64,000 nucleotides of DNA from Buchnera aphidicola (Diuraphis noxia) (GTDB lineage: Bacteria; Pseudomonadota; Gammaproteobacteria; Enterobacterales; Enterobacteriaceae): positions 186,001 to 250,000 of the forward strand of contig NZ_CP013259.1 in the NCBI RefSeq assembly GCF_001700895.1, read 5' to 3'. Shown piece after piece: positions 4,698 through 64,000 of this stretch. The first letter of the stretch is position 1. Every line of letters starts with the position of its first letter. The position numbers and the translations under genes were made by a program. The notes beneath the pieces are model-generated. The model saw only the letters and a program-made list of their open reading frames with translations, searched no databases and was not told the DNA's origin.

Positions 4698-4948
4698 TTA
4701 AATTTTAATTGTGATATCCCCGTGAGGTTGACAACAACAAGGGAAAATATCTTTATTTGTCAATAAAGCAGCCATAGGCTGTTTTATTGAATAAATTATA
4801 TTCCCTTTTATTAATTCAATGCGACACATTCCACAATAACCGGATCGACATTGGTATGCTATACCAATATTATTTAATTCTAATATCATCAATAATGAAA
4901 CGTTTTTTTTATATAGAATTTTTTTTTAATATTTATTATTCTAATCAC
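4698..4948 (-). CDS. yfaE: 2Fe-2S ferredoxin YfaE, apparently frameshifted at an A8 run
   Basis: Small ferredoxin that maintains the diferric-tyrosyl radical cofactor of NrdB. The intact part (64 codons, 4892-4698) carries AYQCRSGYCGMCRIE and a downstream PCCC, the four cluster cysteines. That fragment lacks the usual first beta strand. Adding one A to the A8 run at 4903-4910 joins it to VIRIINIKKKFYIKK starting at a GTG at 4948, giving a protein of about 83 aa, the same size as E. coli YfaE (84 aa) and aligned to it without gaps. No clear ribosome binding site precedes the GTG. It lies directly downstream of nrdB, as in E. coli nrdAB-yfaE. The gene identity is sure; the start and frame are inferred. 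Confidence 0.8.
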
Positions 4949-4961
4949 AGATTTATTTATT

Positions 4962-6092
4962 TTATAGTTGAAATTTTTTAAATTCATTATCAGAAACCTC
5001 TGAATCAATTTGTCCAACAAGATATGAACTGATTTCTGTTTCTTGGGGTGCAGTTTGTATATTATCCGAAGTTAACCAAGAATTAATCCAAGGAATAGGA
5101 TTAGATTTTTTTTGAAAAAGCATTTTAAAACCTATAGCATGCATACGTATATTAGTAATATATTCTATATATTGACAAATTATATCTTTATTTAATCCGA
5201 GCATAGAACCATTTTGAAATAAATATTCAGCCCATTTTTTTTCTTGTTCAGCTGCTGAAATAAATATATTTTTAGCTTCTTCTTTACATTGTAAAATGAT
5301 ATTTTTCATTTCTTCGTCGTTTTCTATGTTACTTAAAATATTTAAAATATGCTGAGTCCCTGTTAAATGTAATGCTTCGTCTCGTGCTATTAGTCGTATG
5401 ATTTTCGCATTTCCTTCCATTAATTCTCTTTCTGCAAATGCAAACGAACATGCAAAGCTAACATAAAATCTAATTGCTTCTAATACATTGACACTGATTA
5501 AACATAAATATAACTTTTTCTTTAATAAACTTAAAGTAATATTAATTTTTTTTTGATTAACTGAATGAATTCCTTCACCTAATAAGTGCCAATAGCTTGT
5601 CAGTTGTATCAATTCGTCATAGTATATAGAAATATTTTGAGCTCGATCATTAATATGCTTATTTGAAATAATATCATCAAATATTAAAGATGGAGAATTG
5701 ACAATGTTTCTAATTATATGCGTATAAGAACGTGAGTGAATGGTTTCTGAAAATGACCAAGTTTCAACCCATGTTTCTAATTCAGGAATAGAAATAATAG
5801 GTAAAAAAGCTATATTAGGACTTCTTCCTTGAATAGAATCTAATAATGTTTGATATTTTAAATTACTAATAAAAATATGTTGTTCATGTTCAGGTAAATT
5901 TTGAAAGTCTATTCTATCTCGAGACAAATCTATTTCTTCTGGTCTCCAAAAAAACGATAATTGTTTTTCAATTAATTTTTCAAAAATATTATATTTTTGT
6001 TGATCATATCTCGCAATGTTTACAGATTGTCCAAAAAACATAGGCTCTTTCAGTTGATTATTGTTTTTTTTTGAAAAAATTGTATAAGACAT
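4962..6092 (-). CDS. nrdB: Ribonucleoside-diphosphate reductase class Ia, beta subunit
   Basis: Houses the diiron-tyrosyl radical that starts catalysis in NrdA; works with NrdA as a cytosolic complex making dNDPs. It is 376 aa, the same as E. coli. The radical Tyr sits in [11 protein letters not shown], and iron ligands are visible in [30 protein letters not shown] split over two helices. The C-terminal tail ending [13 protein letters not shown] is the NrdA docking peptide. It follows nrdA with about 70 bp between and precedes yfaE, forming nrdA-nrdB-yfaE. An oxygen-dependent enzyme fits an aerobic intracellular symbiont. Confidence 0.98.
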
Positions 6093-6161
6093 ATTGTTAT
6101 ACCTGATAATTAATTTTTTTCTTTAAAAAATATTTTTTAAATATATACAAATTGTTTGATG

Positions 6162-8447
6162 TTATATAACACATGCACCACTTTCACAAATATTATTTAT
6201 TACAGACTCAGATATAACGTTTTGATCATCTTTAGAACCATCGTGCACATTTTGATAATACAATGTTTTTAAACCAAGTTTATAAGATAAAAGTAAATCA
6301 TGTAAAAGTTGTTTCATTGGAATTTTATCATTTACAAATCTTTTTGGATCATAGTGAGTATTTACGGATATAGATTGATCAATGAATTTTTGCATAATAC
6401 CAGCTAATTCTAAATAACCTATATTATTCGGTATATCCCAAAGTAATTCGTATTGTAATTTTAATTTTTTATACTCCGGAACTACTTGTCGTAAAATTCC
6501 ATCTTTTGAAACTTTAATACTGACAAATCCTCTGGGTGGTTCAATACCATTAGTTGCATTAGATATTTGAGAAGATGTTTCTGATGGCATTAAAGCAGAC
6601 AACGTTGAATTTCTCAAACCATATTTTTTAATTTTTTTACGTAATGTAATCCAATCTAGATGTAGTGGTTCATTGCATATTTTATCAATATATTTTTTAT
6701 ATGTATCAATAGGAAATTTTCCTAAATAATAATTTGTTTGATGAAATAAAGCACATGCTCCTTTTTCCTTAGCTAATTGACATGAAGCGTCTAATAAATA
6801 GTATTGCATAGCTTCAAAAGTTTTATGAGTTAAATTTTTTGCGCTGCCATCTGAATATCGTACTTTATTTTTCGCTAAATAATACGCAAAATTTATTACA
6901 CCAATACCTAAAGATCGTCTAGAAACAGATGATTTTTTTGCTGCTAGTATAGGATAATTTTGATAGTCTAATATTTCATCAAGAGCTCGTACAGATAATA
7001 TAGATAATTCTTTAAATTCATCTAGATTTTGAATTGTTCCTAAATTAAAAGCTGATAATGTACATAGTGCAATTTCTCCATTTTTATCGTATATATTTTG
7101 TAGAGATGTAGTAGGTAATGTAATTTCTAAGCATAAATTGGATTGTTTGATCGGAGATAATTTTGGATTAAATGCACTATGTGAATTACAATGATCTACA
7201 TTTTGTATATAGATTCGTCCAGTAGATGTTCTTTCTTGCATTATTAAAGAAAATAAATCTAATGCTTTAATTCTTTTTTTTCTTATTTTTTTATTTTTTT
7301 CGTATTCTATATACATTTTTTTAAATTTTTTTTGATCTGAAAAAAATGTTTCATATAATCCAGGAACATCAGAAGGACTGAATAATGTAATATTTTTCCC
7401 TAATAATAATCTTTTATACATTAATTGATTGATTTGAACTGTATAATCGAGATGACGTACTCTATTTTCTTCAATACCTCTATTATTTTTTAAAACTAAT
7501 AAACTTTCAACTTCAAAATGCCATATTGGATAAAAAATAGTTGCTGCTCCTCCTCTAACACCTCCCTGAGAACAAGATTTTACAGCACTTTGAAAATATT
7601 TATAAAAAGGAATACAACCAGTATGAAAAGCTTCTCCATTCCTAATTGGACTTCCTATGGCGCGAATTTTACCAGCATTAATGCCAATTCCTGCACGTTG
7701 CGAAACATATTTTACAATAGAACTAGTTGTGGCATTAATAGAATCAAGATTATCATCACATTCAATTAAAACACAAGAACTAAATTGCCGAGTAGGTGTT
7801 CTTACACCTGACATAATTGGAGTAGGTAATGAAATTTTAAACGTTGAAATTGCGTCATAAAAACGTTTAATATAATCCATACGAGTATCCTTTGGATACT
7901 TAGAAAATAAGCATGCAGAAATTAAGATATATAAAAATTGCGCACTTTCATATATTTTTCCAGTAGTTCTATTTTGTATTAAATATTTACCTTCTAGTTG
8001 TTTTACGGCAGCATATGAAAAATTCATATCTCGACAATGATCAATAAAGGAATTCATATGTAAATACTCTTCATAAGAATAATATTTCAATAAATTTTCA
8101 TCATATTTTCCTAAGTAAACCATGTTTTTTACATGTTCGTATAACATAGGTGGTTCAAATTTACCATAAGCTTTTTTTCTAAGATGAAAAATAGCTAGTC
8201 TTGCAGACATATATTGATAATCTGGTGTATTTTGTGAAATTAAATCTGCTGCAGCTTTAATAATAGTTTCATGAATATTAATAGTAGTCATGTTATTATA
8301 AAATTGAATACGCGAACGTAATTCAACTTGAGAAACAGATACGTTATCTAACCCTTTAGCTGCCCAATTTAGCACTTTATGAATTTTATCTAAATTGATT
8401 TTTTCTTTATTTCCGTTGCGTTTAGTAACAAACAGACTATTTTCCAT
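6162..8447 (-). CDS. nrdA: Ribonucleoside-diphosphate reductase class Ia, alpha subunit
   Basis: Reduces ribonucleoside diphosphates to deoxyribonucleotides using a radical passed from NrdB. It is 761 aa, the E. coli length. The N-terminal ATP-cone (LFVTKRNGNKEKINLDKIH) is present. The catalytic domain carries QFSSCVLIECDD with the first redox Cys, NLCLEITLPT with Glu and Cys of the active site, and ALCTLSAFNLGT. The C-terminal shuttle pair is kept as CESGAC followed by VI. It starts 87 bp downstream of the gyrA stop on the same strand, so a separate promoter is likely in that gap. Confidence 0.98.
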   Translation of the reverse strand: MENSLFVTKRNGNKEKINLDKIHKVLNWAAKGLDNVSVSQVELRSRIQFYNNMTTINIHETIIKAAADLISQNTPDYQYMSARLAIFHLRKKAYGKFEPPMLYEHVKNMVYLGKYDENLLKYYSYEEYLHMNSFIDHCRDMNFSYAAVKQLEGKYLIQNRTTGKIYESAQFLYILISACLFSKYPKDTRMDYIKRFYDAISTFKISLPTPIMSGVRTPTRQFSSCVLIECDDNLDSINATTSSIVKYVSQRAGIGINAGKIRAIGSPIRNGEAFHTGCIPFYKYFQSAVKSCSQGGVRGGAATIFYPIWHFEVESLLVLKNNRGIEENRVRHLDYTVQINQLMYKRLLLGKNITLFSPSDVPGLYETFFSDQKKFKKMYIEYEKNKKIRKKRIKALDLFSLIMQERTSTGRIYIQNVDHCNSHSAFNPKLSPIKQSNLCLEITLPTTSLQNIYDKNGEIALCTLSAFNLGTIQNLDEFKELSILSVRALDEILDYQNYPILAAKKSSVSRRSLGIGVINFAYYLAKNKVRYSDGSAKNLTHKTFEAMQYYLLDASCQLAKEKGACALFHQTNYYLGKFPIDTYKKYIDKICNEPLHLDWITLRKKIKKYGLRNSTLSALMPSETSSQISNATNGIEPPRGFVSIKVSKDGILRQVVPEYKKLKLQYELLWDIPNNIGYLELAGIMQKFIDQSISVNTHYDPKRFVNDKIPMKQLLHDLLLSYKLGLKTLYYQNVHDGSKDDQNVISESVINNICESGACVI

Positions 8448-8534
8448 GTTAATTTTTACTTATTATAAAAGAATGTAAAAAGATATATGTTTAAAGTTTT
8501 TTATACGTTTAATATTCAAGTAAATATACTTTTT

Positions 8535-11018: not shown

Positions 11019-11295
11019 AAAACTATTATCTCTTTATATGTGAACATAATCAAATTAAGTACAAAAGTATAACATAATTAATCTATTAGATGCATAGAAA
11101 GAAAATATTGTCATTAGTGATAAATTTTTAAAAAATAAATTATGTAAAATAAAATTTTTTTTATATTGTTTATTTTTAATGAAAGTATTAATATAAAATA
11201 TAATCACAATTTTTTGTTAAATAAACTAACAACGAATTGTCAATTCTATAATAATTTATTTAGTTCATTAATTTGACTTTAAAACGAGATCTTAT
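11019..11295. other. Divergent intergenic region between gyrA and the DUF2076 gene
   Basis: About 277 bp of AT-rich sequence that must hold promoters for gyrA (minus) and the DUF2076 gene (plus). I find no ORF, no strong hairpin and no remnant of a known gene. TTGTCA near 11238 and TATAAT near 11249 are too close to form one promoter. Confidence 0.5.
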
Positions 11296-12018: not shown

Positions 12019-12068
12019 AATATTAATATATTAGAATTCATAATTCTAGGTATTTTTTTGTTAAAAAT

Positions 12069-12109
12069 AAAGCCAGCATAAAATATTTTTTGCTGACTTT
12101 AATTTTTTT
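12069..12109. terminator. Bidirectional terminator between the DUF2076 gene and ahpC
   Basis: Stem AAAGCCAGCA / TGCTGACTTT with one mismatch and a 12-base loop, followed by a T-run on the plus strand and TTTATTTTT on the minus strand. It serves the two convergent genes and overlaps the ahpC stop codon by two bases. Confidence 0.75.
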
Positions 12110-12701: not shown

Positions 12702-12826
12702 TTTTTTTCCTATAATTTTTTTTGAATAAAAAGAATGTGTTGTTTAAAAAAACTATTTCAACAATAAAAAAAATATTTTTAAAAAACAAGTTTTATTTAT
12801 AAAAAAACATTAGAGAGAAGTTAACA

Positions 12827-13491
12827 ATGAATGAAAAATTATCTTGGAAAGATCTTTTATCTCAAGAAAAAAAAAATATTTTATTAACATAATAAAATTC
12901 TTGAAAAAAGAACGTTTAAGAAAAACGATTTATCCTCAACAAAAAGAGATCTTTAATGCTTTTTTATTAACTCCATTTCATAATATTAAGGTTGTGATTT
13001 TAGGTCAAGATCCATACTTTTCTAAAAATCAAGCACATGGTTTGTCTTTTTCTGTTCCTTATGGTTGTATTATACCACCTTCTTTACGAAATATATATAA
13101 AGAGTTAAATAGTGATTTTAAAAAAAATTATTTATTTAATCATGGGTGTCTTAATAATTGGGCTACACAAGGTGTTTTTTTATTAAATACAAGTTTAACG
13201 GTGGAGTCAAATAAACCAAGATCTCATGTTAATATAGGATGGAATATTTTTACTGATAGAGTTATTTCTATGATTAGTTTATATAAACGCTCTATAGTTT
13301 TTTTGCTTTGGGGCAATGATGCACAAAAAAAAATCAATTTGATAAATACTAAAAATCATTATATTTTAAAAACGTCTCATCCTTCTCCATTATCAGCTTA
13401 TCGTGGATTCTTTGGTTGTAAACATTTTTCTTTAACTAATAAAATTTTAAATAAAGAAAAAAAACAACCGATTAATTGGTTTGTAATTTAA
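12827..13491 (+). CDS. ung: Uracil-DNA glycosylase, frameshifted at an A10 run
   Basis: Removes uracil from DNA as the first step of base excision repair. From ATG 12827, preceded by AGAGAGAAG, the frame reads NEKLSWKDLLSQEKK and then stops at a TAA 20 codons later. Inserting one A in the A10 run 12867-12876 continues as KKKYFINIIKFLKKERLRK into the long frame, matching E. coli Ung residue for residue. Downstream are VVILGQDPYFS (catalytic Asp), a Tyr/Phe discriminator region, and the leucine loop HPSPLSAYRGFFGC. The restored protein is about 221 aa. An internal start at 12844 gives no plausible N-terminus or ribosome binding site. Confidence 0.93.
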
Positions 13492-13492
13492 A

Positions 13493-13523
13493 AATAGAAA
13501 AAAATTTTAGAATTTTTTCTATT
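13493..13523 (+). terminator. Hairpin after ung
   Basis: AATAGAAAAAAATT pairs with AATTTTTTCTATT around a TTAG loop, immediately after the ung stop. The right arm supplies the T-run. It lies between convergent ung and grpE. Confidence 0.6.
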
Positions 13524-13571
13524 CTTAAATAATATAAAATTTTTTTATGTGATTTTTTTTAAAATAAAACA

Positions 13572-14108: not shown

Positions 14109-14145
14109 AAAGTTTACCAATTTAAATATTATTAATCACTAATTG

Positions 14146-14176: not shown

Positions 14177-14233
14177 CATTTATTGTTATATTATAATATA
14201 ATATACATTATTTTTGTTAGGAATTTTTGTCTA

Positions 14234-15112
14234 ATGAAGCAATATTTCACTTATATTGGTATTGTTGGATATCCCCGTCATGAGAGTGCATTAATAACAC
14301 ATAAGATACTTTATAAGTGGTTAGTAAAAAATGGTTATAAAGTTTTTATTGAATGTACTGTTGCTAGAGCATTAAATTTAAATAACGCTGATACTGCTAC
14401 ATTAATAGAAATTGGTCAATCTTGTGATTTAGCAATTGTTATAGGAGGAGATGGAAATTTATTATGTGCAGCACGTGTGTTATCTATTTATAATATTAAA
14501 ATTATTGGGATTAATCGTGGTAATTTAGGTTTTCTGACTGATTTAAATCCTGATACCGGTTTAAAAAAGTTATCGGAAGTATTATCTGGAAATTATTTTT
14601 TAGAAAATCGTTTTTTATTAGATGCGCAAGTATGTCAAAAAAAAAATATTTCTAAATCTAGTATAGCAATAAATGAAGTAGTTTTGCATACGAAACATTT
14701 AGCTCATATGATAGAATTTGAAGTTTACATTGATGATAAATTTTCTTTTTCACAACGTGCAGACGGACTAATTATTTCAACGCCCACTGGTTCTACTGGT
14801 TATTCATTATCGGCAGGTGGTCCAATTATAGCTACATCTTTAGATGCTATGGTTTTAGTTCCGATGTTTCCTCATACCTTATCTGCTCGTCCATTAGTGA
14901 TACACAGTGACAGTATCATTTGTTTAAAATTTTCTAAAGTAGAAACTAATTTAAAAATCAGTTGTGATAGTCAAATAGTTTTAACTATTAAAAAAGGTGA
15001 ATGTGTTTTTATTCGTCGAAGTAGTTTTTATTTAAGACTTGTACATCCTAAAAGTTACAATTATTTTCAAACGTTAACTTCAAAATTAAATTGGTCTAAA
15101 AAGTTTTTTTAA
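14234..15112 (+). CDS. nadK: NAD kinase
   Basis: Phosphorylates NAD+ to NADP+ in the cytosol. Exactly 292 aa, the E. coli length, when started at ATG 14234 ([18 protein letters not shown]). The frame is open further upstream but that extension has no family match. Motifs are [13 protein letters not shown] (GGDGN, substrate and phosphate binding), [12 protein letters not shown] and the conserved [23 protein letters not shown] lies 11 bases upstream. An in-frame A10 run at 14637-14646 is intact. Together with nadE this keeps the last steps of pyridine nucleotide synthesis in the window. Confidence 0.97.
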
Positions 15113-15492: not shown

Positions 15493-15516
15493 TATGTCTC
15501 AAAAAAATATAATTTT

Positions 15517-16460: not shown

Positions 16461-17108
16461 TTATTTTTTTTTTATTTGATTTAAGGGCCAACCGCCTAAA
16501 CGTTTCCAACGGTTGACTAATTCACAAAAAAGATTTGCAGTTTGCAATGTATCATACAGTGCAGAATGTGCTTGATTATTATCAAATTTTAAACCAATCG
16601 CTTTGCATGCTTTAGCTAAAACTGTTTCACCGACTACTAAACCACTGAGTGCTGCAGTATCAAAAGTTACAAATGGATGAAAAGGATTATTTTTTATTTT
16701 TACTCTTTGAATTGCTGCCATTAAAAAATTATGATCGAAATTAGCGTTATGTGCAACAACAATACCTTTACTACATCCTTGTATTTTAATTCCTTGATTT
16801 ACCATTTCTAATATTGAATTAATTGCTATCTTTTCGCTAATAGCTCCACGTAATGGATTAAAAGGATCAATTTTATTAAAGGCTATTGCATCAGAATTTA
16901 TTATAGAACCTGCAAATGGTTCTATATGAAAATGTAAAGTATTTTCTTTATGTAGCCATCCTAGCTTATCCATTTTTAGTGTAATTATAGCAATTTCTAA
17001 TAATGCGTCAGTGTTAGCATTAAATCCTGCAGTTTCAATATCTATAACAACAGGATAAAAACTACGAAATCGATCACTTAATAAATTGAATTCTTGAGTT
17101 GTAGACAT
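16461..17108 (-). CDS. rnt: Ribonuclease T
   Basis: 3'-5' exonuclease that trims tRNA, 5S and 23S rRNA ends. A DEDDh exonuclease: [11 protein letters not shown] gives the first Asp/Glu, [11 protein letters not shown] the middle Asp, and QAHSALYDT the His/Asp pair. Length is 215 aa, as in E. coli, using ATG 17108; a TTG one codon upstream is also possible. The C-terminal [13 protein letters not shown] is typical of RNase T. It is divergent from sodA. Confidence 0.97.
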
Positions 17109-28929: not shown

Positions 28930-31226
28930 ATGTACATAAATAAAAAAAAAATCTTTTAATACAAATGTCTTCTTTAGGCTTGCTTTTATTTATTTTCTAT
29001 GGATTATATTTGTATATCAAAATAAGTAAATTAATTGATGGAAAAGTATGGAGTTTTCCTACTTCCATATATTCTCGTATTATCAACTTAGAACCAGGAA
29101 GTTTATATTCTCAAACAGAAGTCTTACAATTTTTAAATGATACTATGTATAAAAAAGTCAATACTGTAATGTTACCAGGAGAATATAGTATACACAAAAA
29201 TCAAATAGAATTTATACGACGATCTTTTGATTTTCCTGATATTAAAGAAAAAGAAGTTTATACGAGGTTATGTTTTAAGAACAATATTTTAACAAAAATT
29301 ACTAATATTGAAAATAATCGTGATTTTAATTTTTTTCGATTAGAACCGAAGTTAATTACTATGTTAAAAACTCCTGATAGAAAACAACGCATATTTCAGT
29401 CTTATGATAAGTTTCCTAAAATTTTAGTTAAAACTTTATTAACAATTGAAGATAAGAATTTTTATAAACATGAAGGTATTAATATATATTCTATTGGTCG
29501 TGCCTTCTTAGCAAATTTGACAGCAGGACATACGATTCAAGGTGGTAGTACTCTTACGCAACAATTAGTTAAAAATCTTTTTTTGACTAATACTCGTTCA
29601 ATTTTTAGAAAAGTAAATGAAATCTATATGGCATTAATTTTAGATTATTTTTACACAAAAAATCGAATTTTAGAACTATATTTAAATGAAGTGTATTTGG
29701 GACAAGATGGTGATGAACAAATTCGAGGATTTCCGCTTGCTAGTATTTATTATTTTGGTCGACCAATAGATGAATTAACTTTAGATCAATATGCTTTATT
29801 AGTAGGAATGGTTAAAGGAGCTTCTTTATATAATCCTTGGACTAATCCTAGTATTGCAATGAAAAGAAGAAATTTAGTACTATCTTCATTGTATAATCAA
29901 AAATTATTTACGAAAAAAATCTATCAAGATTTATGTAAACGTTCTTTGAACGTTCAATGTAGAGGTGATGTTGTTACTTCTCATCCTGCTTTTGTTCAAC
30001 TTGTTAATACTGAATTAAAAAAAAAAATTAATTATTCCATTGAAAAATATTCAGGTGTAAAAATTTTTACTACTTTAGATTTTGTATCTCAAAATGCAGC
30101 AGAAAAAGCAGTAAAAATAGGAATGCCTATATTAAAAAAACAAAAACAATTAAAAGATTTAGAAGTTGCTATGGTCGTTATAGACAAATTTACCGGAGAA
30201 GTTCAAGCTTTAATTGGCGGTTCTAAAGTAAAATTTAACGGTTATAATCGTGCTTTACACGCACGTCGTGCAATTGGTTCATTATCTAAACCAATAACAT
30301 ATTTAACCGCTTTATCACAACCAGATAAATATAATTTAAACACCTGGATTTCTGATACACCTATTTCAATTAAATTAAAAAATGGTAAATATTGGATACC
30401 TAATAATAATAATTATCATTTTAGTGGAAAAGTGATGTTATTAGATGCTTTAGTTAACTCAATTAATATACCAACAGTGAATCTAAGTTTAGATATAGGA
30501 TTAAATAAGTTAATTGATAGTTGGTTACGTTTGGGTGTGTCTAGAGAATACCTTACTCCATATCCATCTATATCTTTAGGAGCTATTAATTTAACTCCAA
30601 TTGAAATTGCTCAAGTTTTTCAAATTATTTCTAATAGTGGTTTTAAATCATCATTATCTTCAGTTAGATCTGTTGTTACTGATAATAATCAAATTTTATA
30701 TCAAAGTTTACCTACATCGAAACATATAATTTCTTCTGAAGCTTCTTATTTAACATTATACGCTATGCAACAAGTAATAAAAAGTGGAACTGCAAAATCA
30801 TTAGGAAAAGTTTTTAAAAATATTAATTTAGCAGGAAAAACTGGAACAACAAATAACTTAGTAGATAATTGGTTTGTTGGTATTGATGGAAAGCAAGTAG
30901 TAATCATTTGGATAGGTAGGGATAATAATAAAACAACTCGATTATATAGTTCTTCTGGTGCAATGCAAATCTATAAAAAATATCTTCAATATCACAATCC
31001 AAAAAATTTAATATTAAATCCTCCGAAAAATATTGATATGTTTTATATAGATAGTTCAGGAAAATTATTTTGTACAAAAAGTGATAATCATAATCGATTT
31101 ATACCTATATGGTCTAAAAAAGATAAAAAAAATTGTTTTCTAAAAAAACCTATAGATTATTTTGAAAAATTTAAAAACAAAAAAAAATCTTTTTTATTCT
31201 GGTTAAAAGATCTTTTTATACATTAA
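28930..31226 (+). CDS. mrcB: Penicillin-binding protein 1B, with an A10 frameshift in codons 5-8
   Basis: Bifunctional class A PBP that polymerises and cross-links peptidoglycan at the inner membrane. ATG 28930 has GGGG eight bases upstream but its frame stops after 9 codons; one extra A in the A10 run 28942-28951 joins MYINKKKN to LLIQMSSLG and the main frame. The internal ATG 28965 (753 aa) has no ribosome binding site. Features are one N-terminal membrane helix, a UB2H-like region, glycosyltransferase (TIEDKNFYKHEGI, GGSTLTQQLVKNLF) and transpeptidase (GSLSKPITY with SxxK, KTGTTNN). The long E. coli cytoplasmic tail is absent. An internal A11 run at 30017-30027 is in frame. If slippage does not occur, ATG 28965 would still give a complete enzyme. 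Confidence 0.93.
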
Positions 31227-34491: not shown

Positions 34492-35144
34492 TTAATAAAA
34501 CCTTGTTAAATAATTTTTTTTTATGCTGATTGTTTGTTTTTGATTATTTTTTTTTGATAAATATGAATAAAACAAATTAAAATAATCAACATATTTTCTT
34601 ATTTGATGAATACTGTTTTTATTAAAAATAATATCATCTGATATGGCAATTCTTTCTTTTCTTGAAGCTTGTGCAGAAATAATTTTCTTAGCACTTTGTA
34701 TACTGATTTTATCTCTTTTTATCACGCGTTTTATTTGGTTTTTGAGAGTGGTATCTACTAAAAGAATTCTATTCGGTATATGTTGTAATTTTTTTTCAAT
34801 TAACAAAGGTACTACCCATAAACACCAATGTTCTTTAACCAGTTGTATTTGTTTTTTGCTTTCTCGATAAATTTTAGGATGTAGTAAATTTTCCAACCAT
34901 AATCGATCATTTTGGTTGTTAAAAATATGTTCTCTTAAAGACAATCTATCAATTGTGTTGTTTGATTTTAATATTTTTTTTCCAATTTTTTTTTTATAGC
35001 ATCTGATATTTTATCATTATATTTTATAATCTTTTTTGCAATTGCATCTGTGTCAATAATATTGACACCTATTTTTTTAAAACTATTAGAGACCGTAGTT
35101 TTGCCACTACCAATGCCTCCAGTAAGTGCTACAATATAAGTCAT
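34492..35144 (-). CDS. coaE: Dephospho-CoA kinase, frameshifted at an A10 run
   Basis: Last step of CoA synthesis. From ATG 35144 ([21 protein letters not shown]-loop) the frame ends early at EKKY. One extra A in the A10 run 34986-34995 gives [25 protein letters not shown], best read in two parts, which aligns gap-free with E. coli FGANMI...RRALRERIF and enters the second frame. Downstream are [20 protein letters not shown] and AQASRKERI. The restored protein is about 217 aa (E. coli 206). CoA synthesis is thought indispensable, so expression of a full protein is expected despite the break. It is divergent from guaC and convergent with the mutT remnant. Confidence 0.92.
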
Positions 35145-35213
35145 ATTTTTTGTATTCAATGTTGTTTTTATATAATATCTGTAATTATATATTTTTATTA
35201 GGATTCTAATTTT

Positions 35214-47909: not shown

Positions 47910-48856
47910 TTAACAAGTTTTACTTGGATAGTTGTTTTTAGATTTCTTTAAGTTTAAAATTAATAAAACTAGTTCATCAAATGATATTCCACTTGCTTTA
48001 GCTGCCATTGGAACTAGACTACGATGAGTCATACCAGGTATAGTATTTACTTCTAGTAACCAAAATTGATTTTTTTCATCTAATATAACATCAACTCGTC
48101 CACATCCTTTGCAGTTTAATGTTTTCCATGCTAATAGTGCTATTTTTTTTAGTGTTGTTTCTTGCGCTATGTTTAATCCACTAGGACATGAATATTGAGT
48201 AGAAAAAGATTGGTATTTAGCATTATAATCATAGAAATTATTGTTTGTATAAATACGAATAATTGGTAATATTTCGTTGTTTAAAATAGATATCGTATAT
48301 TCTTTTCCTTTTATAAATTTTTCAATTAAAATATCATCATTATAACTACACACAATATTAATGGCATTACTCAATTCTTTTATACAAGATACTAAAGTAA
48401 TTCCTATGCTCGATCCTTGATTATTTGGTTTTATCAAAATAGGAAATCCTAGTTTTAATATTTTTTGTATTATAGAAGAACTCAACAGTTTTGAGTTTTT
48501 TTTTTAATATAAACATCAGGTATTGTGGGTAAATTACAAGATTTCCATAGTAATTTAGTTCTAAATTTATCTATAGATATTGCAGAAGCCATAATCCCAC
48601 TTCCAGTATAAGGTATATTGAGATATTCGAGAACTCCTTGAATACTCCCATCTTCACCCCCTTTTCCGTGTAACATAATATATACTTTGTCAAACTGTTC
48701 TTTTTTTAAATTACAAATAGACGTATTACGTGTATCAATTGCGTGTGCATCAAAACCAGATTTTATTAGACTTTGGAGTATAACATTTCCTGATTGTATT
48801 GAAATTTCTCTTTCAGAAGATGTTCCACCAAATAAGACTGCTATTTTTTTTTTCAT
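47910..48856 (-). CDS. ddlB: D-alanine--D-alanine ligase B, frameshifted at an A10 run
   Basis: Makes the D-Ala-D-Ala dipeptide for MurF. The first frame (48856 on) covers the N-terminal domain: VLFGGTSSEREISIQSG, HGKGGEDGSIQGVLEYLNIPYTGS and FRTKLLWKS, then stops at KKKTQNC. One extra A in the A10 run 48505-48496 continues as KKKNSKLLSSSIIQK into the second frame with IKPNNQGSSIGI, LIEKFIKGKEYT and WLLEVNTIPGMTHRSLVP (ATP-grasp and substrate residues). The restored protein is 315 aa (E. coli 306). The separate Met start of the second frame is not a real start. It follows murC by 13 bp. Confidence 0.93.
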
Positions 48857-52614: not shown

Positions 52615-53940
52615 TCAAGAAGCTATATCTTTTGTTATTTTCATAAAAATATTACCTCTTTCTTCAAAGCTAGAAAATTGATCTAAACTACTACAACCAG
52701 GAGATAAAAGTACTGTATCACCTGATATTGCTTCTTTTATAATTAATTTCATTGCCTGTTGTAAAGTATCGAAGTAAATAGATTTTTTTTTACATATTTG
52801 TGAAATATTTTTTCCATCTTTTCCAAAGCAGTAAATTTTTATTTTAAATTTTTCAAAATCATCTTTTAGTATATTAAAATTTGCAGATTTGCTATCTCCA
52901 CCTAACAATAATCTGATTGTTCCAGAAGTATTTAAGGAATTTAAAGCAACTTTTGTACTATTTACATTTGTAGATTTAGAATCGTTTATCCAATCTATTC
53001 CCTTTTTTCTATGTATAATTTGAAGTCTATGAGGTAAACTAGAGAATTTTTGCAATGTAGTTATTATACAATGTCTAGGACATTTTATAGAGTCAGAAAT
53101 AGCTAGAGCAACTAATGCGTTCTGATGATTATGAGCACCCCATAATAATGTTTGACTAATATCTAGTATTTTTTTATTTTTACGAGATAATATAACATTT
53201 TTATGGTTATAATGAACTTGATAATCACTGTTTTGAGTACCAAAAGTAATATATTTTTTAGATTTATTGGTCTGAATAACATCATGTAATTTATTTTTTA
53301 CATTGACAATGCAAATTTCTGCTCTTTGGTAAAGAGATAATTTAATTTTTTTATATTGTTTAAAACCTTCTGGATATCGATTAATATGGTCTTCACTGAT
53401 ATTTAGCACTACTGCAATTTTAGATTTTAAAGTAAATGTATTTTCTAATTGAAAACTAGATAATTCTAATATGTAAAAATCTACTTTTTGATTGAGCATA
53501 TTCAAAATAGGAACGCCTATATTTCCACCTAAACATACTTTGTAACCTGATTTTTTTGCAATTTTTTCAACCATTGTAGCCACAGTACTTTTTCCATTAG
53601 TACCTGTGATTGAAATAATAGGAAAAATGGCTTCTCTTGAAAAAAGTTCTATATCACTAATAATCTCAATTCCTAATGAACGAGCATGTATTAAAATAGG
53701 TTTAAATGAAGAAATTCCTGGACTAATAACAATTATATCTGCTTCTAGAATCCATTTATTGTTTAAGTTTCCTAGAAAAAATGGAATGTTTTTAGGGATT
53801 TTTTTTAAAAACACAGGATTTTTAGATTCATCAATTATTTTTGGTATTACACCTTTTTTTAAAAAAAAATGAATACATGATATTCCTGTTAATCCAATAC
53901 CTAAAATTAATATTTTTTTCCCAAAGTAATTGTATTTCAT
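52615..53940 (-). CDS. murD: UDP-N-acetylmuramoylalanine--D-glutamate ligase
   Basis: Adds D-Glu to UDP-MurNAc-Ala. The N-terminal Rossmann motif is ILILGIGLTGISCIHFFL, the ATP loop SITGTNGKSTVATMVEK, and further marks are GGNIGVPIL, LELSSFQLE and WINDSKSTNVNST. ATG 53940 overlaps the mraY stop by one base (TAATG), and [14 protein letters not shown] fits the family start; the open frame upstream to 53997 lies inside mraY and is rejected. Length is 441 aa (E. coli 438). Confidence 0.97.
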   Translation of the reverse strand: MKYNYFGKKILILGIGLTGISCIHFFLKKGVIPKIIDESKNPVFLKKIPKNIPFFLGNLNNKWILEADIIVISPGISSFKPILIHARSLGIEIISDIELFSREAIFPIISITGTNGKSTVATMVEKIAKKSGYKVCLGGNIGVPILNMLNQKVDFYILELSSFQLENTFTLKSKIAVVLNISEDHINRYPEGFKQYKKIKLSLYQRAEICIVNVKNKLHDVIQTNKSKKYITFGTQNSDYQVHYNHKNVILSRKNKKILDISQTLLWGAHNHQNALVALAISDSIKCPRHCIITTLQKFSSLPHRLQIIHRKKGIDWINDSKSTNVNSTKVALNSLNTSGTIRLLLGGDSKSANFNILKDDFEKFKIKIYCFGKDGKNISQICKKKSIYFDTLQQAMKLIIKEAISGDTVLLSPGCSSLDQFSSFEERGNIFMKITKDIAS

Positions 53941-55010
53941 TAACACACCTTGAGTGAAATAAGACTTATTAAAAGTAATATTAATGAAATAATCCAAAAT
54001 CTTACGATTATTGTAGGTTCTAATATTCCTTTCAGTTCATAATGATGATGAATTGGTGCCATTTTAAAGATTCTTTTTCGTCTGATTTTAAATGATATAA
54101 CTTGTAAAATAACAGATATAGTTTCGAAAATAAATACTCCACCCATTATTATTAATAATAATTCTTGATGCAATAAAATTGCAATTATTCCTAACGATCC
54201 TCCTAATGATAAAGATCCAACATCGCCCATAAATATTTTAGCAGGATAGTTATTGAACCATAAAAAACCTAATCCTGATCCAATAATAGCTGTACATAAT
54301 ATAGATAATTCGCCTGCATTTTTTATATAAGACACATTTAAATACTCAGAATTTTTTATATCTAGACTAAGTAACGATATTAATGTAAAACCACATGACA
54401 AAAAAATAACGGGCATAATTGCCAAACCATCTAATCCATCTGTTAAATTAACTGCATTACTAGTACCAACAATTATAAAATAAGATAATAATATGTATAG
54501 ATAATTAATTTGAATATTTTTTTTACAAAATGGAATATTTAATTCAGTAAAAAAAAGAGTTTTATTATTAATATATATTATATATATTATTCCTAATGCG
54601 AGAATAGATAATAAAAAATATTTACATAAAACTGTTAATCCTTGAGAATTTTGATATTTTAACTTTTTATAGTCATCTACAAAACCAATAAAACCATAGC
54701 CTAATAAAATACTAACCACATACCAAATGTAATTATTAGATAAATCACAGTATAAAAGAACTGAAAACATTATAGAAAAAATAATAAATAAACCACCCAT
54801 AGTTGGAACTTTATTTTTTAAGTAATGAGTTTTTGGACCATTGTGTCTTATTGTTTGATATGTTTGTATTTTTTTAAAAAAATATATAAAAATAGGTCCA
54901 ATATACAAATTGATAAAAAAAGACGTCAACAAACTAAATATTGCACGATATGAAATATATGAAATAGTGTAAAAATAAACATTGAAGTATTTATACAACA
55001 AAATTAACAT
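53940..55010 (-). CDS. mraY: Phospho-N-acetylmuramoyl-pentapeptide transferase MraY
   Basis: Integral membrane enzyme that makes lipid I from UDP-MurNAc-pentapeptide and undecaprenyl phosphate. About ten membrane helices; the catalytic and Mg-binding motifs are [23 protein letters not shown] and [13 protein letters not shown], and the [11 protein letters not shown] loop is intact. Length is 356 aa (E. coli 360). Its start lies 20 bp inside the end of murF, and its stop overlaps the murD start. Confidence 0.98.
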
Positions 55011-56369
55011 GTTTTTTACTCTCTTTAATGAGATATTCTACTACTTTTTCCATTCTTGTATTACGTGAACCTTTAATTAAAATTGTAATTTTATTTTTAT
55101 TAAAAAATATTTTTTTTAAATATTTATTTAATTGTCTATGATCAAGGAAATGTTTTCCATTATTAGATATTTTACTGATTTCATAACTTATTTGTCCAAT
55201 CGTAAGGATTTCATCTATTTTATATAAATTTACAGTATTTCCTATTATTTTATGGTATAAAACACTTTTTTTCCCTAATTCTGACATATCACCGGAAACT
55301 AATATTTTATATCCTGGCATTTTATCTAATACCTGAATAGCTGAAATCATAGATGAAACATTAGAATTATAAGTATCGTTAATCAAAATTTTATGCGGTT
55401 TTAATTCAATGAGTTCTAATCTTCCAGATAAAATTGGAGTGGCTAATAATCCATTTTTTATTTTTTTTAAGGGTATTTTCAAAGAAAAAGATAAAGCGGT
55501 TGCTGCTAATACGTTAGATATATTTTGATATCCTAAAAATGGTAATGAAATATTTATTTTTCCCGACGGGGTATGTATTGTAAAAGATGTACCATGTATG
55601 TGAATTTTAATGTCACTAGAAAAAATATCGCTCGATTTTTTTTTTTAATAGAAAAATATATGATATCTTTTTGAGATATATTTTTTTTCCATTGTGAAAG
55701 ATGATGACTATCTAAGTTGATAATAATTATACCATTAGACTTAAGACCAGAAAATATTTCCGATTTTGCCTTGGAGACTCCTAAAAGTGATTTAAAACCT
55801 TCTAAATGAGCATAGTAAATATTGTTTATTAATACGACTTCTGGTCGACTAATTTTACTACTATAAAAAATTTCACCTGGTTGATTTGCACCCAATTCAA
55901 TGACACCATATTTATGTTTTTTTGTAAGTTGTAGTAAAGTGATCGGAACACCGATGTGATTATTAAAATTACCAATAGTAGATATTGTATTGCCATCTTG
56001 TTTTAGTATAGATGATGTCATTTCTTTTACAGAACTTTTACCACAAGAACCTGTAATCGCTAATATTTTTGCATTAGTTGATTGTCTAATCCAAGAAGCA
56101 ATATCACCTAATGCAATAGATGTATTTTTTACAATAATATAAGAAATACAACATTTGATGTTTTTTTGCATTATAATAGCCGCACATCCTTTGATGATAG
56201 CATTTTCTATAAAGTTATGCGCATCAAACTTTTTACCTATTAATACAATAAACAGACAGCCTGGAACAACCTGTTTAGTATCAATAACGATTTTATTTAT
56301 TACTAAATTTGATCCATATAACTTTCCATTAGTAATTTTAGCTATTTTTTTCAAGGATAGAGAAATCAT
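54991..56369 (-). CDS. murF: UDP-MurNAc-tripeptide--D-alanyl-D-alanine ligase, frameshifted at an A11 run
   Basis: Adds D-Ala-D-Ala to complete the pentapeptide. The first frame from 56369 covers the N-terminal and ATP domains ([47 protein letters not shown]) and then goes out of frame after FSIKKK. One extra A in the A11 run 55646-55636 restores [16 protein letters not shown], then [11 protein letters not shown] and [16 protein letters not shown], into the frame with [13 protein letters not shown] and [12 protein letters not shown]. Restored length is 459 aa (E. coli 452). The fragment ending at 55554 carries a 20-residue nonsense tail. It starts one base after the murE stop. Confidence 0.93.
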
Positions 56370-56370
56370 T

Positions 56371-57861: not shown

Positions 57862-57872
57862 TTAAACCTTTT

Positions 57873-59600: not shown

Positions 59601-59674
59601 TGATTAATTTAAATTATCTGATTTAAACTATTGACTTGATACTTTTATGTATTTTAAAAGTTAATTGATAGAAA

Positions 59675-59928
59675 TTATTTTTTTGAGATATGAGATGAAA
59701 CAAATAAAGTATTTTTTTCAATGATTAAATTTCTCCATTCATTGTTTTTTTTTTTTTAATACGAAGAAGATTTTCTTCTTCTGAAATTAGTAAACGAGTT
59801 TTATAGACTGTAATAACAGTACAACTGGCAGATATTAAAATGGCTATCAATAAAATTAAGTGTATTTTCCAATTTGAAAGAAAATCATTTTTTATTATTT
59901 GAATTAGATCATAACGTTGAATTTTCAT
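59675..59928 (-). CDS. ftsL: Cell division protein FtsL, frameshifted at an A13 run
   Basis: Bitopic division protein that links FtsW/FtsI to upstream factors. The N-terminal 60 residues include a membrane helix (IHLILLIAILISASCTVITV) and the start of the coiled coil (TRLLISEEENLLRIKKKK). The present frame then ends in TMNGEI. With one extra A in the A13 run 59757-59745 it reads NNEWRNLIIEKNTLFVSSH, a gap-free match to E. coli IEWRNLILEENAL, ending at 59675. Even then the C-terminus is about 37 residues shorter than E. coli FtsL; further FtsL-like sequence may continue in a third frame after the A7 at 59684-59678. It starts 5 bp after rsmH. Confidence 0.85.
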
Positions 59929-59932
59929 TGTT

Positions 59933-60868
59933 TTATTTTTTTTCTGCAGTACGGAGTATTGCGCTCCTTGATCTTGGGTTTTTCTTTATTTCATTCTGAG
60001 TAGGTAAAATACGATGAATAATTTTTAATTTAGATGTTTTTAATTTATTTAATTGTACTTCTGTAATTGGCATTCCATATGGAACGCTGGCTTTTCTACT
60101 GTTTTTTATCATAAATTGTTTTACAATTCTATCTTCTAGAGAATGAAAACTAATAATGGAAATACGTCCTCCTGGTATTAGTATTTTTAAGGTATTGTTT
60201 AAAGCTTTTTTAATTTCCTCTAGTTCCTCATTAATATAAATTCTAATAGCTTGAAAAGTTCTTTTTGCTGGATGTTTAAATTTGTTTTTTATAGGTATTG
60301 CATTTTTGATAATATCAACTAATTCTTTAGTAGTTGTTATTTTTTTTTGGCGATTTTTATTTTTAATAGCATAAGCTATTCTTTTTGAAAAAATTTCTTC
60401 TCCAAAATTTTTTAATATATAAGAGATAGTATGAACATCACTCTTAAATAACCAGTCTGATGCAGAAATCCCACAATTAGGATTCATGCGCATGTCTAAA
60501 GGACCATCTTGTTTAAATGAAAAACCTCTTTTATAATCATCAATTTGTAATGAAGAAAGACCTAAATCAAAAATTATTCCATTCACTTTTCCTATTATTT
60601 TTTTATTTTCAGCATAATTTAATAAATTAGAAAATTTTTCATGAATTATATGAAAACGAGAATCTTGAATATTTTCCCCTATAGCTATAGCACTAGGATC
60701 TTTATCAAACGAATATAGCGTGCCATTTTTCCCTAAATATTTCAAAATTTCTTTTGAATGCCCACCAGAACCAAATGTGCTATCAATATAGATGCCATTT
60801 TTTTTTATTTTCAAAGATTGTATTAATTCTTTTTTCATTACTGGAATATGTTTAAGTATGTCATTCAT
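59933..60868 (-). CDS. rsmH: 16S rRNA m4C1402 methyltransferase RsmH (MraW)
   Basis: Methylates N4 of C1402 in the ribosomal P site using SAM. Marks are [13 protein letters not shown], the SAM loop [43 protein letters not shown] and the C-terminal [14 protein letters not shown]. Length is 311 aa (E. coli 313). It is the first gene of the remaining division and wall cluster; mraZ, which precedes it in E. coli, is absent. Confidence 0.98.
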
Positions 60869-60999
60869 TTTAATTTTTATAGTAGTTTATTATTTATACA
60901 CGGTCACTAAATTTAAATGACCATGTTTAACAAAATTGATTTAATTTATAAAATTAAACTTAAAAAATTTAAAAAAATAAATATTTTTTGCATATACAT

Positions 61000-61034
61000 A
61001 TAAAAAAATAATAAAATCACATATTATTTTTTAT
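61000..61034 (-). terminator. Weak AT-only hairpin after ilvH
   Basis: ATAAAAAAATAATA and TATTATTTTTTAT nearly complement each other just after the ilvH stop at 61046. It contains only A and T in the stem and may be chance; it is the only terminator candidate for ilvIH. Confidence 0.3.
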
Positions 61035-61045
61035 AAAACAGCAAC

Positions 61046-61525
61046 TTATCCTCGTGAAATACCTACTATGCCAGAACGACTTATTTCTATGATATCTGAT
61101 ATCTTTCTTATAACTTTTAAAAAAGAATTTAATTTTTTTGTTGTTCCAGATAATTGTAGTATATATGTTGTAGATGTCATATCTACAATTTGACCTCTAA
61201 ACACTTCAGTAGTATGTTTAATATCATCTCTCTTAGAAGAAGTATTAATCTGGACTTTAACTAACATAATTTCGCGTTCTATATGAGAAAATTGGTCAAT
61301 CTGAACAACTCTTAATACATCTATTAATTTATGCAGTTGTTTTTCGATTTGCTCAATATTTTTTTCATCTCCGATTGTTTGTATAGTCATTTTTGATAGA
61401 GTTGGATCTTCAGTTGGTGCAAGTGTTATCGTTTCTATGTTATATCCTCTTTGGGAAAAAAGCCCTATTACTCTTGACAGTGCACCTGATTCATTTTCTA
61501 ATAAAATAGACAAAATTCTGCGCAT
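61046..61525 (-). CDS. ilvH: Acetolactate synthase III, small regulatory subunit
   Basis: Activates IlvI and confers valine feedback. Two ACT-type domains: [33 protein letters not shown] at residues 1-33 (quoted as two neighbouring parts) and the C-terminal half ending [10 protein letters not shown]. Length is 159 aa (E. coli 163), started at ATG 61525 two bases after the ilvI stop, with GAGGAA inside the end of ilvI; the upstream start at 61555 is rejected because it overlaps ilvI and breaks the family start. Confidence 0.97.
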
Positions 61526-61527
61526 CT

Positions 61528-63243
61528 TTAAAATTCCTCTTTTTTCCTTAGCCACATGTCATTCATTCCACCACCTTGGATTTGCATAGGATAAACATGC
61601 TCAGAACTATCGATTTTAATATCAACGAAAACTAAATTTCCAGTAGATAGTTTTTGTAATGCCAGTATTAGTTTTTCTTTTAATTCTAGAGGTTGGCTAA
61701 TTTGAATTCCAATATGTCCATAAGATTCTACTAATTGTATAAAATTTGGTAGTGAATCCATATAAGAATGAGAATGTCGTCCACAATAAATCATATCTTG
61801 CCATTGTTTAACCATACCTAAAGAAGCATTATTCAGGTTAATAATTAATATAGCTAAATTATATTGTCGTGCTGTAGATAATTCTTGGATATTCATTTGA
61901 ATGCTGCCATCTCCAGTTATACAAATAACTGTGTCTTTAGGGAAACCTAATTTGACACCTAAAGCAGCAGGAAATCCAAATCCCATGGTACCTAATCCAC
62001 CTGAATTAATCCAGCGTCTAGGTTTATTAAAAGGATAATATAATGCAGTAAACATTTGATGTTGACCGACATCTGAAGTTATATAAGCATCACCTTTGGT
62101 GAGTTGAAAAAGAGTTTCGATAACTTTTTGAGGTTTAATTTTTTTGTTATTTTCATAGTATTTTAAACTATTAACTTTTTTCCATTTTTCAATACAGTTC
62201 CACCAATTTTTTAAACAAAAAATATGTTGTTCTGATTTTAATATTTTGAGCATTTGTTGTAAAACGTATTTCGCGTCTCCTACAATAGGTATATGCGCTG
62301 AAACAGTTTTAGAAATCGAAGTAGGATCAATATCAATATGTACAACAATAGCGTTAGGACAATATTTTTTTAAATTATTTGTTGTTCGATCATCGAATCT
62401 AACACCAATAGCAAAAATTACATCAGCATGATGCATTGCCATATTTGCTTCATAAGTACCATGCATACCCAACATAGCAATACTTTGAGGATGATTTCCT
62501 GGGAAGACACCTAATCCCATTAAAGAAGTAGTCACAGGACAATTTGTTTTTTCTGCAAATTCAAGTAATTCTTTATGACATTTGGAACTAATTACCCCCC
62601 CGCCAGCATAAATAACTGGTTGTTTAGCTTTGAGTAATCTATATAAAGCTTTTTGAATTTGTTTTTTATGCCCCTTAGTTGTGGGATTATATGATCTGAT
62701 ATTAACACTATCTGGCCATTTAAAAAAATATTTACTTTTTTTCTTTAAAATATCTTTTGGTAAATCAATAACGATTGGTCCCGGACGTCCACTTTCTGCT
62801 AACCAAAAAGCTTTTTTAAAAGTAATTGGTATATCTTCAGTTTTTTTAACTAAAAAACTATGTTTGACTATTGGACGAGAAACACCGATCATATCGCATT
62901 CTTGAAAAGCATCATAACCAATTAATAATGAAGCAACTTGACCTGATATTACCACCATAGGAATTGAGTCCATATATGCAGTAGCGATGCCAGTAATAGC
63001 ATTAGTTGCACCTGGTCCTGAAGTGACTAATACCACTCCTGTTTTACCAGTAGAACGGGCATATCCATCAGCCATATGAGTTGCTGCTTGTTCGTGTCTA
63101 ACTAGAATATGTTCAATTCCACCAATAGTTTTTAGAGCGTCATAAATATCTAGTACAGCTCCACCAGGATAACCAAATATATGTTGTATTCCTTGATTAA
63201 TTAATGATCTAACGACCATTTCGGCTCCTGACAATATTTCCAT
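61528..63243 (-). CDS. ilvI: Acetolactate synthase III, large catalytic subunit
   Basis: Thiamine diphosphate enzyme that forms acetolactate or acetohydroxybutyrate, the first common step of valine, leucine and isoleucine synthesis and a source of 2-oxoisovalerate for PanB. Catalytic Glu in [20 protein letters not shown]/ThDP segments [19 protein letters not shown] and [16 protein letters not shown]. Length is 571 aa (E. coli 574). GGAGG lies seven bases before the ATG, one of the best ribosome binding sites in the window. Confidence 0.98.
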
Positions 63244-63529
63244 TTTTTCCTCCAGGATACTAATTTAGTATTAGGTTTTATTTCCTAGTTCGCTATCTAT
63301 CAGATTATCCTGTAGTTTATCTAGATAAAATTAGCGCTATTTAATATAAAAAATTTTTAAAATAGTTTTTCGATATTTTTCAAATAGTTCTTATGTTAAA
63401 AATAAAAACTATTATTTTTGTTAATGATGTAATTTTTTATTATTACAAATATATCAGATATTATCAATTAGTAGAATCTAATTAAATGCAATTTATATTG
63501 ATTAATTATTGTCATGATTTAAAAGTATT
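63244..63529. other. Intergenic region upstream of ilvI
   Basis: About 286 bp between the apbE stop and ilvI, both on the minus strand. It contains the palindrome at 63316-63329 and a short hairpin ATACTAA/TTAGTAT directly before the ilvI ribosome binding site (63253-63270). No leader peptide rich in branched-chain codons is seen. The rest is featureless AT-rich sequence. Confidence 0.5.
63316..63329. promoter_or_regulatory. 14-bp perfect palindrome upstream of ilvI
   Basis: TTTATCTAGATAAA lies about 73 bp upstream of the ilvI start. Its symmetry is that of a dimeric repressor site, but it is AT-rich and no regulator can be named. E. coli ilvIH is controlled by Lrp, which has a different, degenerate site. 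Confidence 0.35.
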
Positions 63530-64000
63530 TTACTTAAGTAAAAATTTTCTAAATTGAGGAGATGTCCATGTTGAAAAAGTATTTTTTTTTTGAGTGATAA
63601 GACAAACTGCTAATTTTTCTTTTAGTATTAATTTTTTTGCTTTTTTAAATCCCATGATAAGTAATCCTGAATCCCATCCGTCTGCTTCTAAAGCAGTTGA
63701 AGAAATAACACTAACAGAAACTAAATTATGTGTTATAGGTTTTCCAGTTCTAGGATTGATTAAGTGACAAATACGTTTTCCTTTAAGATAATAATAGTTA
63801 CGGTAACATCCAGCCGTACTGATGGCACCATTTTTTAAATTTATTAATAAATGAATTGATTGGTTTTGATCTATAGGTTTTTGAATTGCAATTATTTTAG
63901 ACTGTTTTTCATTTTTTTCTGTTTCTGTTAATACAGTTCCTCCAACTGAAATAGTATAGTTGTTTATCTTTTTTTTTTAAGTATATACGATATATGATCT
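63530..64000 (-). CDS. apbE: FAD:protein FMN transferase ApbE, 3' part, frameshifted at an A10 run
   Basis: Flavin transferase that attaches FMN to Thr of proteins such as Nqr/Rnf subunits, usually a periplasmic lipoprotein. Only the C-terminal part is in the window: ISVGGTVLTET, GAISTAGCYRNYYYLKGKR, LINPRTGKPITHNLVSVSV and LEADGWDSGLLIMG, ending TWTSPQFRKFLLK and TAA at 63530. Upstream, DHISYILKK leads into the A10 run 63978-63969, after which the frame is lost; one extra A makes a 21-residue gap-free match to E. coli ApbE (ADHLARLMEQEGIS...SVGG). A second A10 at 63591-63582 is in frame. N-terminus outside the window. Confidence 0.88.

Follow-up and report, generated by a model that had tools for sequence, protein, structure and literature searches.

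The stretch studied here, referred to as the window, comprises the 64,000 nucleotides from base 186001 to base 250000 of the 636,266-bp single-contig genome of Buchnera from the aphid host Diuraphis noxia (CP013259.1). Eight genes in it, yfaE, ung, mrcB, coaE, ddlB, murF, ftsL and apbE, change reading frame at a run of A on the sense strand, and at each of these sites the DNA is one base short. A preliminary description of this DNA had reported the eight breaks together with the lengths of the runs; the run lengths were correct, and the breaks were reproduced by alignment for seven genes and by eye for the mrcB leader. The genes and runs concerned are as follows (positions are those of the window).

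4698..5017, minus strand: yfaE; lesion at the A8/A9 pair 4903-4910 / 4919-4927, one short; 5' limit approximate
12827..13491, plus strand: ung (uracil-DNA glycosylase); N-terminal lesion at A10 12867-12876, one short; start placed by eye; family match
28930..31226, plus strand: mrcB (PBP1b); A10 28942-28951 between a leader of a dozen codons and the remainder
30017..30027, plus strand: A11 run within mrcB, in frame
34492..35159, minus strand: coaE (dephospho-CoA kinase); lesion at A10 34986-34995, one short
47910..48856, minus strand: ddlB (D-Ala-D-Ala ligase); lesion at A10 48496-48505, one short
54991..56369, minus strand: murF; lesion at A11 55636-55646, one short, near residue 243 of about 455
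59678..59928, minus strand: ftsL; lesion at A13 59745-59757, one short
63522..64000, minus strand: apbE; lesion at A10 63969-63978, one short; 5' part outside the window; 3' limit approximate; family match
14183-15112: nadK, distinct from ung

Frame-tolerant alignment gave a shift of -1 with all four references for yfaE, coaE, murF, ftsL, apbE and ung, while for ddlB three references gave -1 and one gave +2, both of which belong to the same frame class. The C-terminal part of yfaE matches the YfaE family (profile positions 22-80 of 81). Alignments of the mrcB leader disagreed (two references gave -2 and one gave -1), and by eye the distance from the ATG at 28930 to the ATG at 28965 is 35 bases, i.e. 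one base short. Only about a dozen codons lie 5' of A10 28942-28951, the open reading frame (ORF) starting at 28965 matches the PBP1b profile from position 21 through the end, and the in-frame ATG at 28965 may act as the start. The A11 run at 30017-30027, described earlier as intact, was confirmed to be in frame. The apbE run A10 63582-63591 is also in frame, and the adjoining apbE sequence holds a second one-short A10 near 64,400, beyond the window. The run at 16464-16473 was considered as the ung site and rejected; the gene there is RNase T, with a family match to its end. Family searches support the names of the lesion genes and of murC, murE, mraY, murD, ftsW, murG, ftsI, ilvH, rsmH, truA, pth, ychF, nadK and guaC; the genes that we take to be ftsA, ftsZ and nrdAB are named by assumption.

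The homologous region was compared in 33 further Buchnera genomes, mostly near-collinear, in which it was represented by four contiguous stretches (5 genomes) or three stretches (28 genomes); the sampling covered about 60 kb in 34 genomes, plus 200 kb more in D. noxia alone. To call lesions, the longest orthologous proteins of each gene (at most four) were aligned to the DNA in a frame-tolerant manner, and the calls were then filtered. Before counting, we dropped one ORF of doubtful status (gene 14), any copy with three or more shifts, and lesions that lay close to the end of an alignment or on which the references disagreed. We scored ung separately by its N-terminal peptide before including it in the tests of phase and enrichment; the 3' end of truA was excluded from the run-length table and the cell-wall enrichment test and retained when phases and events were counted. 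In murD, rsmH and ilvH, shifts close to the N-terminus were put down to start ambiguity. The 80 loci retained from a search for relatives of mraY included none from Buchnera and were set aside. The filtered set holds 110 internal lesions at runs of A8 or longer: murF 29 (in 28 genomes), ftsL 19, murC 11, yfaE 10, murE 8, ung 8, ddlB 7, the 3' end of truA 7, apbE 4, murD 3, and one each in coaE, mraY, ftsI and nadK. An additional 13 lesions lie off A-runs. Among lesions in otherwise sound copies (ung, truA and the uncertain ORF excluded), 94 of 108 are located at A9 or longer.

A comparison with other Buchnera strains had been proposed in the preliminary description, and it showed that homologous positions are broken repeatedly across many assemblies. 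The ddlB site at 48496-48505 is also out of frame in 6 of 33 other genomes, 9 further genomes have a yfaE frame break at A-runs, and ftsL is out of frame in 19 of the 34 genomes (18 one short, 1 one extra). The coaE lesion is found in D. noxia alone; the gene was located in 32 other genomes and shows no shift in any of them. The idea that the D. noxia window is extreme had to be given up, as five such lesions in D. noxia compare with six in Melanaphis and five each in four others.

The broken genes carry single lesions and are otherwise open. Copies with 0, 1, and 2 or more internal shifts numbered 6/27/1 for murF, 20/14/0 for murC, 26/8/0 for murE and 27/7/0 for ddlB (34 copies each); all 57 shifted copies of these four genes carry exactly one internal shift, except Pentalonia murF. 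No stops were found inside the broken copies of murF, murC, murE and ddlB, the ddlB stop calls being at reference residue 4, before the start. The decayed mrcB served as a positive control, with 3-17 shifts each and up to 22 stops in 11 of the 34 genomes. The genomes with decayed mrcB include those of Schizaphis, Microlophium, Sitobion avenae, A. glycines and A. nasturtii and are scattered on the tree.

We then compared ratios of nonsynonymous to synonymous substitution rates (Ka/Ks), calculated by the method of Nei and Gojobori (NG86), which is crude for AT-rich DNA, so that we rely on contrasts between genes; the pairs are not independent. In 20 murF pairs with both copies broken, the median Ka/Ks was 0.158 before the lesion and 0.207 after it, and the median of the intact murG was 0.181 (20 pairs). 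Pairs with both copies broken and intact pairs had medians of 0.229 (5 pairs) and 0.236 (10 pairs) for murC, 0.159 (3 pairs) and 0.245 (15 pairs) for murE, and 0.205 (3 pairs) and 0.200 (13 pairs) for ddlB, whereas mrcB reached 0.75 when both copies were decayed (3 pairs, 0.55-0.95) versus 0.240 when intact (10 pairs). Furthermore, the 16 murF codons 249-264 past the lesion had a ratio of nonsynonymous to synonymous differences per site (pN/pS) of 0.195 in the downstream frame (12 pairs pooled), and this constraint points to one continuous protein rather than a separate downstream gene. In all 13 Aphidini genomes examined there was no stop in the 199-200 codons past the murF lesion; neutral redrawing of 10, 20 and 30% of sites would be expected to yield 3.0, 5.3 and 7.8 stops per lineage there. 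The several lesions and the Ka/Ks towards 1 that mark a decaying pseudogene were thus seen in mrcB and not in murF, murC, murE or ddlB. These four genes instead show a single indel in a tract of about A9 or longer with the rest open, and ordinary purifying selection to either side of it (for murF, and with fewer pairs for murC, murE and ddlB), as a gene rescued by slippage would.

To place the murF lesion in time we used a tree of 14 proteins (6849 columns), on which the clade names Aphidini and Macrosiphini are taken from the hosts. Including G018, 29 of 35 genomes share a murF break at a single site, 28 of them one short and Melanaphis one extra, and the site retains 9-14 A's in the 28 listed broken copies. 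The gene is broken in 14 of 14 genomes of the Aphidini clade (13 plus G018), which has a support of 86 with Melanaphis, and is in frame in Baizongia, Nipponaphis and G053; no murF match was found in G025. Muscaphis, with murF in frame, is sister to the Aphidini plus Macrosiphini clade (support 100). One early lesion followed by five returns to frame requires 6 steps across the 35 genomes and 3 outgroups, and lesions without returns require 8. On the shortest history, murF would have suffered a single lesion before the Aphidini/Macrosiphini split that was retained, with five later returns to frame. Degnan et al. (2011) likewise found murF broken in Ap-5A, Ap-Tuc7, Ak, Ua and Sg and intact in Ap-Tokyo, and they inferred four independent inactivations (PMC3164680); in contrast, one early lesion with five returns is shorter here than eight independent lesions. 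State counts by species are not independent, and event counts depend on one tree and one reconstruction.

Breakage was next related to run length in the 34 genomes, leaving out ung, truA, mrcB (as a mostly decayed gene), the uncertain ORF and any copy with three or more shifts. The broken fraction was 2/2873 at A7, 0/1978 at A8, 13/807 at A9, 36/230 at A10, 25/67 at A11, 8/37 at A12 and 12/31 at A13 or longer. The preliminary description had seen a sharp threshold, with nearly all runs of intended length A11 or more one short; this fails genus-wide, as 45 of the 135 runs of A11 or more are broken and 90 are intact. With ung included, the ten cell-wall and division genes were broken more often than the others both at A10 (30/110 versus 20/135, p 0.018) and at A11 or more (40/94 versus 13/61, p 0.009). 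Adding ung weakened this enrichment, from p 9e-6 to 0.018 at A10 and from p 0.0006 to 0.009 at A11 or more. Taken together, breakage is governed by run length and gene together.

The lesions also differ in phase. Counted as events from the in-frame state with truA included, 48 were one short and 2 one extra without ung, and 51 and 6 with ung; shifts in the decayed mrcB were 64:46, and the difference from 51:6 gave p 2e-5 (p 7e-11 before adding ung). In addition, eight returns from one short to in frame were reconstructed on the tree. The earlier claim that the changes run in one direction therefore holds in the window and mostly in the genus, and does not hold for ung. The ung N-terminal peptide is present in 34 of 34 genomes; it shares the frame of the remaining gene in 13 and differs from it in 21 (15 one extra, 6 one short); its pN/pS over nine codons is 0.20, and in the one-extra copies a start codon was seen by eye in the other frame in some and not in others. 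In Buchnera transcripts, 151 of 157 insertions versus 16 of 57 deletions were reported to lie in homopolymers, and insertions rose exponentially with run length up to 11; per transcribed base, the overall deletion rate was slightly above the insertion rate (PMC5574713). Transcripts of varied A-length, a fraction of them in frame, have been reported for an aphid endosymbiont (PMC5009743).

On these comparisons the shared frame-broken genes look like neither decay nor sequencing error. We consider it highly probable that they are working genes kept in a frame-broken state, whose full-length protein would be made through RNA-polymerase slippage. When RNA polymerase passes a run of about A9 or more, the nascent RNA would slip back on the template and some transcripts would gain one A; transcripts with the extra A could be read in frame and yield the full-length enzyme. 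Because some slipped transcripts would restore the frame, a one-short run could be tolerated, chiefly where little product may suffice (murF, murC, murE, ddlB and ftsL). We infer both transcript slippage as the rescuing step and the small need for product.

The slippage mechanism itself is already known, having been described for Buchnera cell-wall genes in 2008. The PNAS paper of Tamas and colleagues from that year reportedly noted purifying selection and showed murF protein by immunostaining. Slippage rescue of poly(A) frameshift genes in Buchnera and Blochmannia is attributed to Tamas et al. (2008) by later papers (PMC5009743, PMC3164680, PMC3017870, PMC7067036). That system resembles the present one in genus, in its poly(A) indel lesions and in its cell-wall genes, and differs in that here 34 genomes were compared, the murF lesion was placed on a tree and the phase bias was counted; further D. 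noxia cases are coaE, apbE, ddlB, yfaE, ung and ftsL, some of which may already be listed there for other strains. What is added here is the genus-wide extent, the age, the one-short bias with ung as its exception, and the link to Rhopalosiphum maidis described below. Degnan et al. (2011) reported 8-18 homopolymeric frameshifts in six of eight tabulated genomes, with 1 and 3 in the other two, and cite slippage correction in Buchnera of R. padi (PMC3164680). Blochmannia vafer offers a further likeness, with eight genes carrying single poly(A)/poly(T) indels that were counted as intact as slippage may correct them; these are other genes (including dnaX, dnaG, dxs, pth and ribF) in another symbiont, and no unusual acceleration was found in the four frameshifted genes tested (PMC3017870).

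A 2022 study counted the Buchnera of R. maidis as being without murC, murE and murF, yet found that it builds a labelled cell wall, and invoked novel adaptations (PMC9116674). One sentence there, in conflict with others, names MurF as the sole remaining ligase; frameshifted coding sequences had been removed from the annotations, and the words 'slippage' and 'homopolymer' do not occur in the main text (PMC9116674). We found murC, murE and murF all present in the R. maidis Buchnera genome (642,929 bp); each of them lacks one base at an A10 run, carries a single internal shift and has a low Ka/Ks relative to R. padi. As judged from these sequences, the known slippage mechanism could explain the R. 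maidis wall. A link between the 2022 paper and slippage was not met in the searches made of openly licensed papers. When gene loss is inferred for AT-rich symbionts, a category intermediate between intact and lost is needed.

Several observations weigh against rescue by slippage or narrow its reach. Fourteen of the 108 lesions are not at A9 or longer. The excess of one-extra over one-short copies of ung (15 versus 6) is a poorer fit to simple +1 slippage, and one extra base was also found in Melanaphis murF, Artemisaphis ddlB, Pentalonia murE, G023 ftsL and R. maidis yfaE. The phase bias could come partly from contraction-biased mutation of long runs; a polarity test on neutral runs, a very small sample, gave three polarised changes in 41 runs, all lengthening. 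The lesions in murC and murE need seven and four events on the tree, and since they are scattered the selection argument is weaker for both genes; they may be young, their low Ka/Ks reflecting a lack of time for decay. Furthermore, among the 14 shifts in murC, 5 are at residues 15-20, ahead of the family match that starts at residue 21, and may be start ambiguity. Finally, R. maidis murD (homologue of window 52615-53997) is one short relative to R. padi and Schizaphis at a T8-A7 stretch near codon 44, which is not a long A-run, so that slippage on A-runs would not cover murD.

A missing base can also be mended by a -1 ribosomal shift, with or without polymerase slippage, and A-rich heptamers are the classic slippery site. 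Programmed -1 frameshifting in Escherichia coli dnaX resembles the Buchnera sites in that the frame can change by one at an A-run. Unlike dnaX, the Buchnera sites have no Shine-Dalgarno (SD)-like or structural stimulator, and they would serve rescue rather than a second product. An upstream SD-like motif was present at 1 of 101 broken sites versus 57 of 1024 in-frame control runs, and the folding energy of the downstream 60 nt was -5.37 versus -5.22 kcal/mol in controls, so dnaX-type stimulators were not found at these sites. In addition, seven A's would suffice for such a shift, yet just 2 of 4851 A7-A8 runs carry lesions, for which lower mutation of short runs may be a partial explanation. 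We therefore think it unlikely that ribosomal frameshifting on the A-runs accounts for the lesions by itself; it could act jointly with slippage.

Buchnera is highly polyploid, and its genome copies might differ in run length, some being in frame, with the assembly reporting the commonest length. Runs do change, as the eight returns to frame suggest. However, a fixed lesion accounts more readily for a commonest state shared by almost the whole Aphidini clade, and we regard a mixture of chromosomes as quite improbable.

The preliminary description had left open whether slippage rescue or homopolymer undercalling explains the breaks. Were assemblies to undercall long homopolymers by one, the genes would truly be in frame; the HiFi platform has known homopolymer indels, all eight window lesions are one short, and coaE is broken in D. 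noxia only, so that lesions unique to D. noxia (such as coaE) could be assembly errors. A PacBio HiFi assembly has been described for the D. noxia Buchnera genome (PMC10851558). Runs of 11 or more within the window number 4 in D. noxia versus 5 to 8 in the slightly longer region of five relatives. A pooled count had also suggested a shortage of long runs in D. noxia as a sign of artefact (8 in 284 kb versus 33 in 332 kb of the homologous window of the five relatives, p 0.0005), and this vanished in ten matched stretches outside the window, where runs of at least 11 per 200 kb were 4 in D. noxia, 3 in Brevicoryne and 2 in Myzus. The apparent shortage arose because the window region is rich in runs in the relatives. 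Undercalling would act on run length only, within a single assembly, and be blind to the gene, but breakage depends on the gene at equal run length, the murF lesion occurs in 29 of 35 genomes and shows grouping on the tree, and the 90 runs of 11 or more that are intact speak against it as well. Recurrence at homologous sites, dependence on the gene and purifying selection on both sides together favour rescue over undercalling, which is not clearly supported by the run counts in D. noxia and appears very unlikely as a general explanation. As a separate observation, A/T runs of at least 11 are about eightfold denser in the window region of the five relatives (33 in 332 kb) than in 400 kb elsewhere in two relatives (5).

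Buchnera evolves under strong drift, and the lesions might be recent and drift-fixed in young or incipient pseudogenes, with no rescue and with decay to come. The states of murC and murE change often on the tree, and the four independent murF inactivations of Degnan et al. (2011) would fit this as well (PMC3164680). Against it, murF is broken in 14 of 14 Aphidini without a further internal lesion and with low Ka/Ks in the compared pairs, and the R. maidis Buchnera makes a cell wall (PMC9116674); we give this explanation very little probability. There is hardly any case for gene fission, in which the downstream half of murF would be made separately from its own start codon. In its favour, an ATG at residue 265 occurs in 23 of 28 broken copies. 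Against it, that ATG is absent from D. noxia and from four further genomes, the six in-frame copies also have methionine at residue 265, the codons from the lesion to residue 265 are under purifying selection rather than free of it, and the lesion lies in mid-protein, near residue 242 of E. coli MurF.

Returning to slippage rescue, we put forward a wider proposal that we find plausible, if somewhat short of probable. In Aphidinae Buchnera, the cluster of lipid II and division genes, a region where long A/T runs are common, may be a standing slippage hotspot, in which murF would have depended on slippage since before the Aphidini/Macrosiphini split and the slippage rate would act as a fixed throttle on wall output; inventories that drop frameshifted genes would then have wrongly scored the wall pathway of Aphidini as lost.

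Lesion density was also compared within D. noxia and is higher in the window than in the other stretches sampled. The window holds six such lesions (yfaE, coaE, ddlB, murF, ftsL and apbE), whereas ten other 20-kb D. noxia stretches compared with two relatives hold one single lesion at an A-run (folC) and one single lesion elsewhere (L140:18115), besides a doubly shifted gene (L139) and a decayed one (L142). Six of the seven lesions at A-runs thus fall in the window (binomial p 0.001, in a post hoc test for which the window and stretch scans used different references). The folC gene (L137:13558-14828, about 179,560-180,830 of the D. noxia genome) lies just upstream of the window and is one short at an A10 run, supported by two relatives, and its N-terminal piece matches the family. 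At L140:18115, a single -1 shift off A-runs, also supported by two relatives, interrupts a gene of about 470-505 amino acids.

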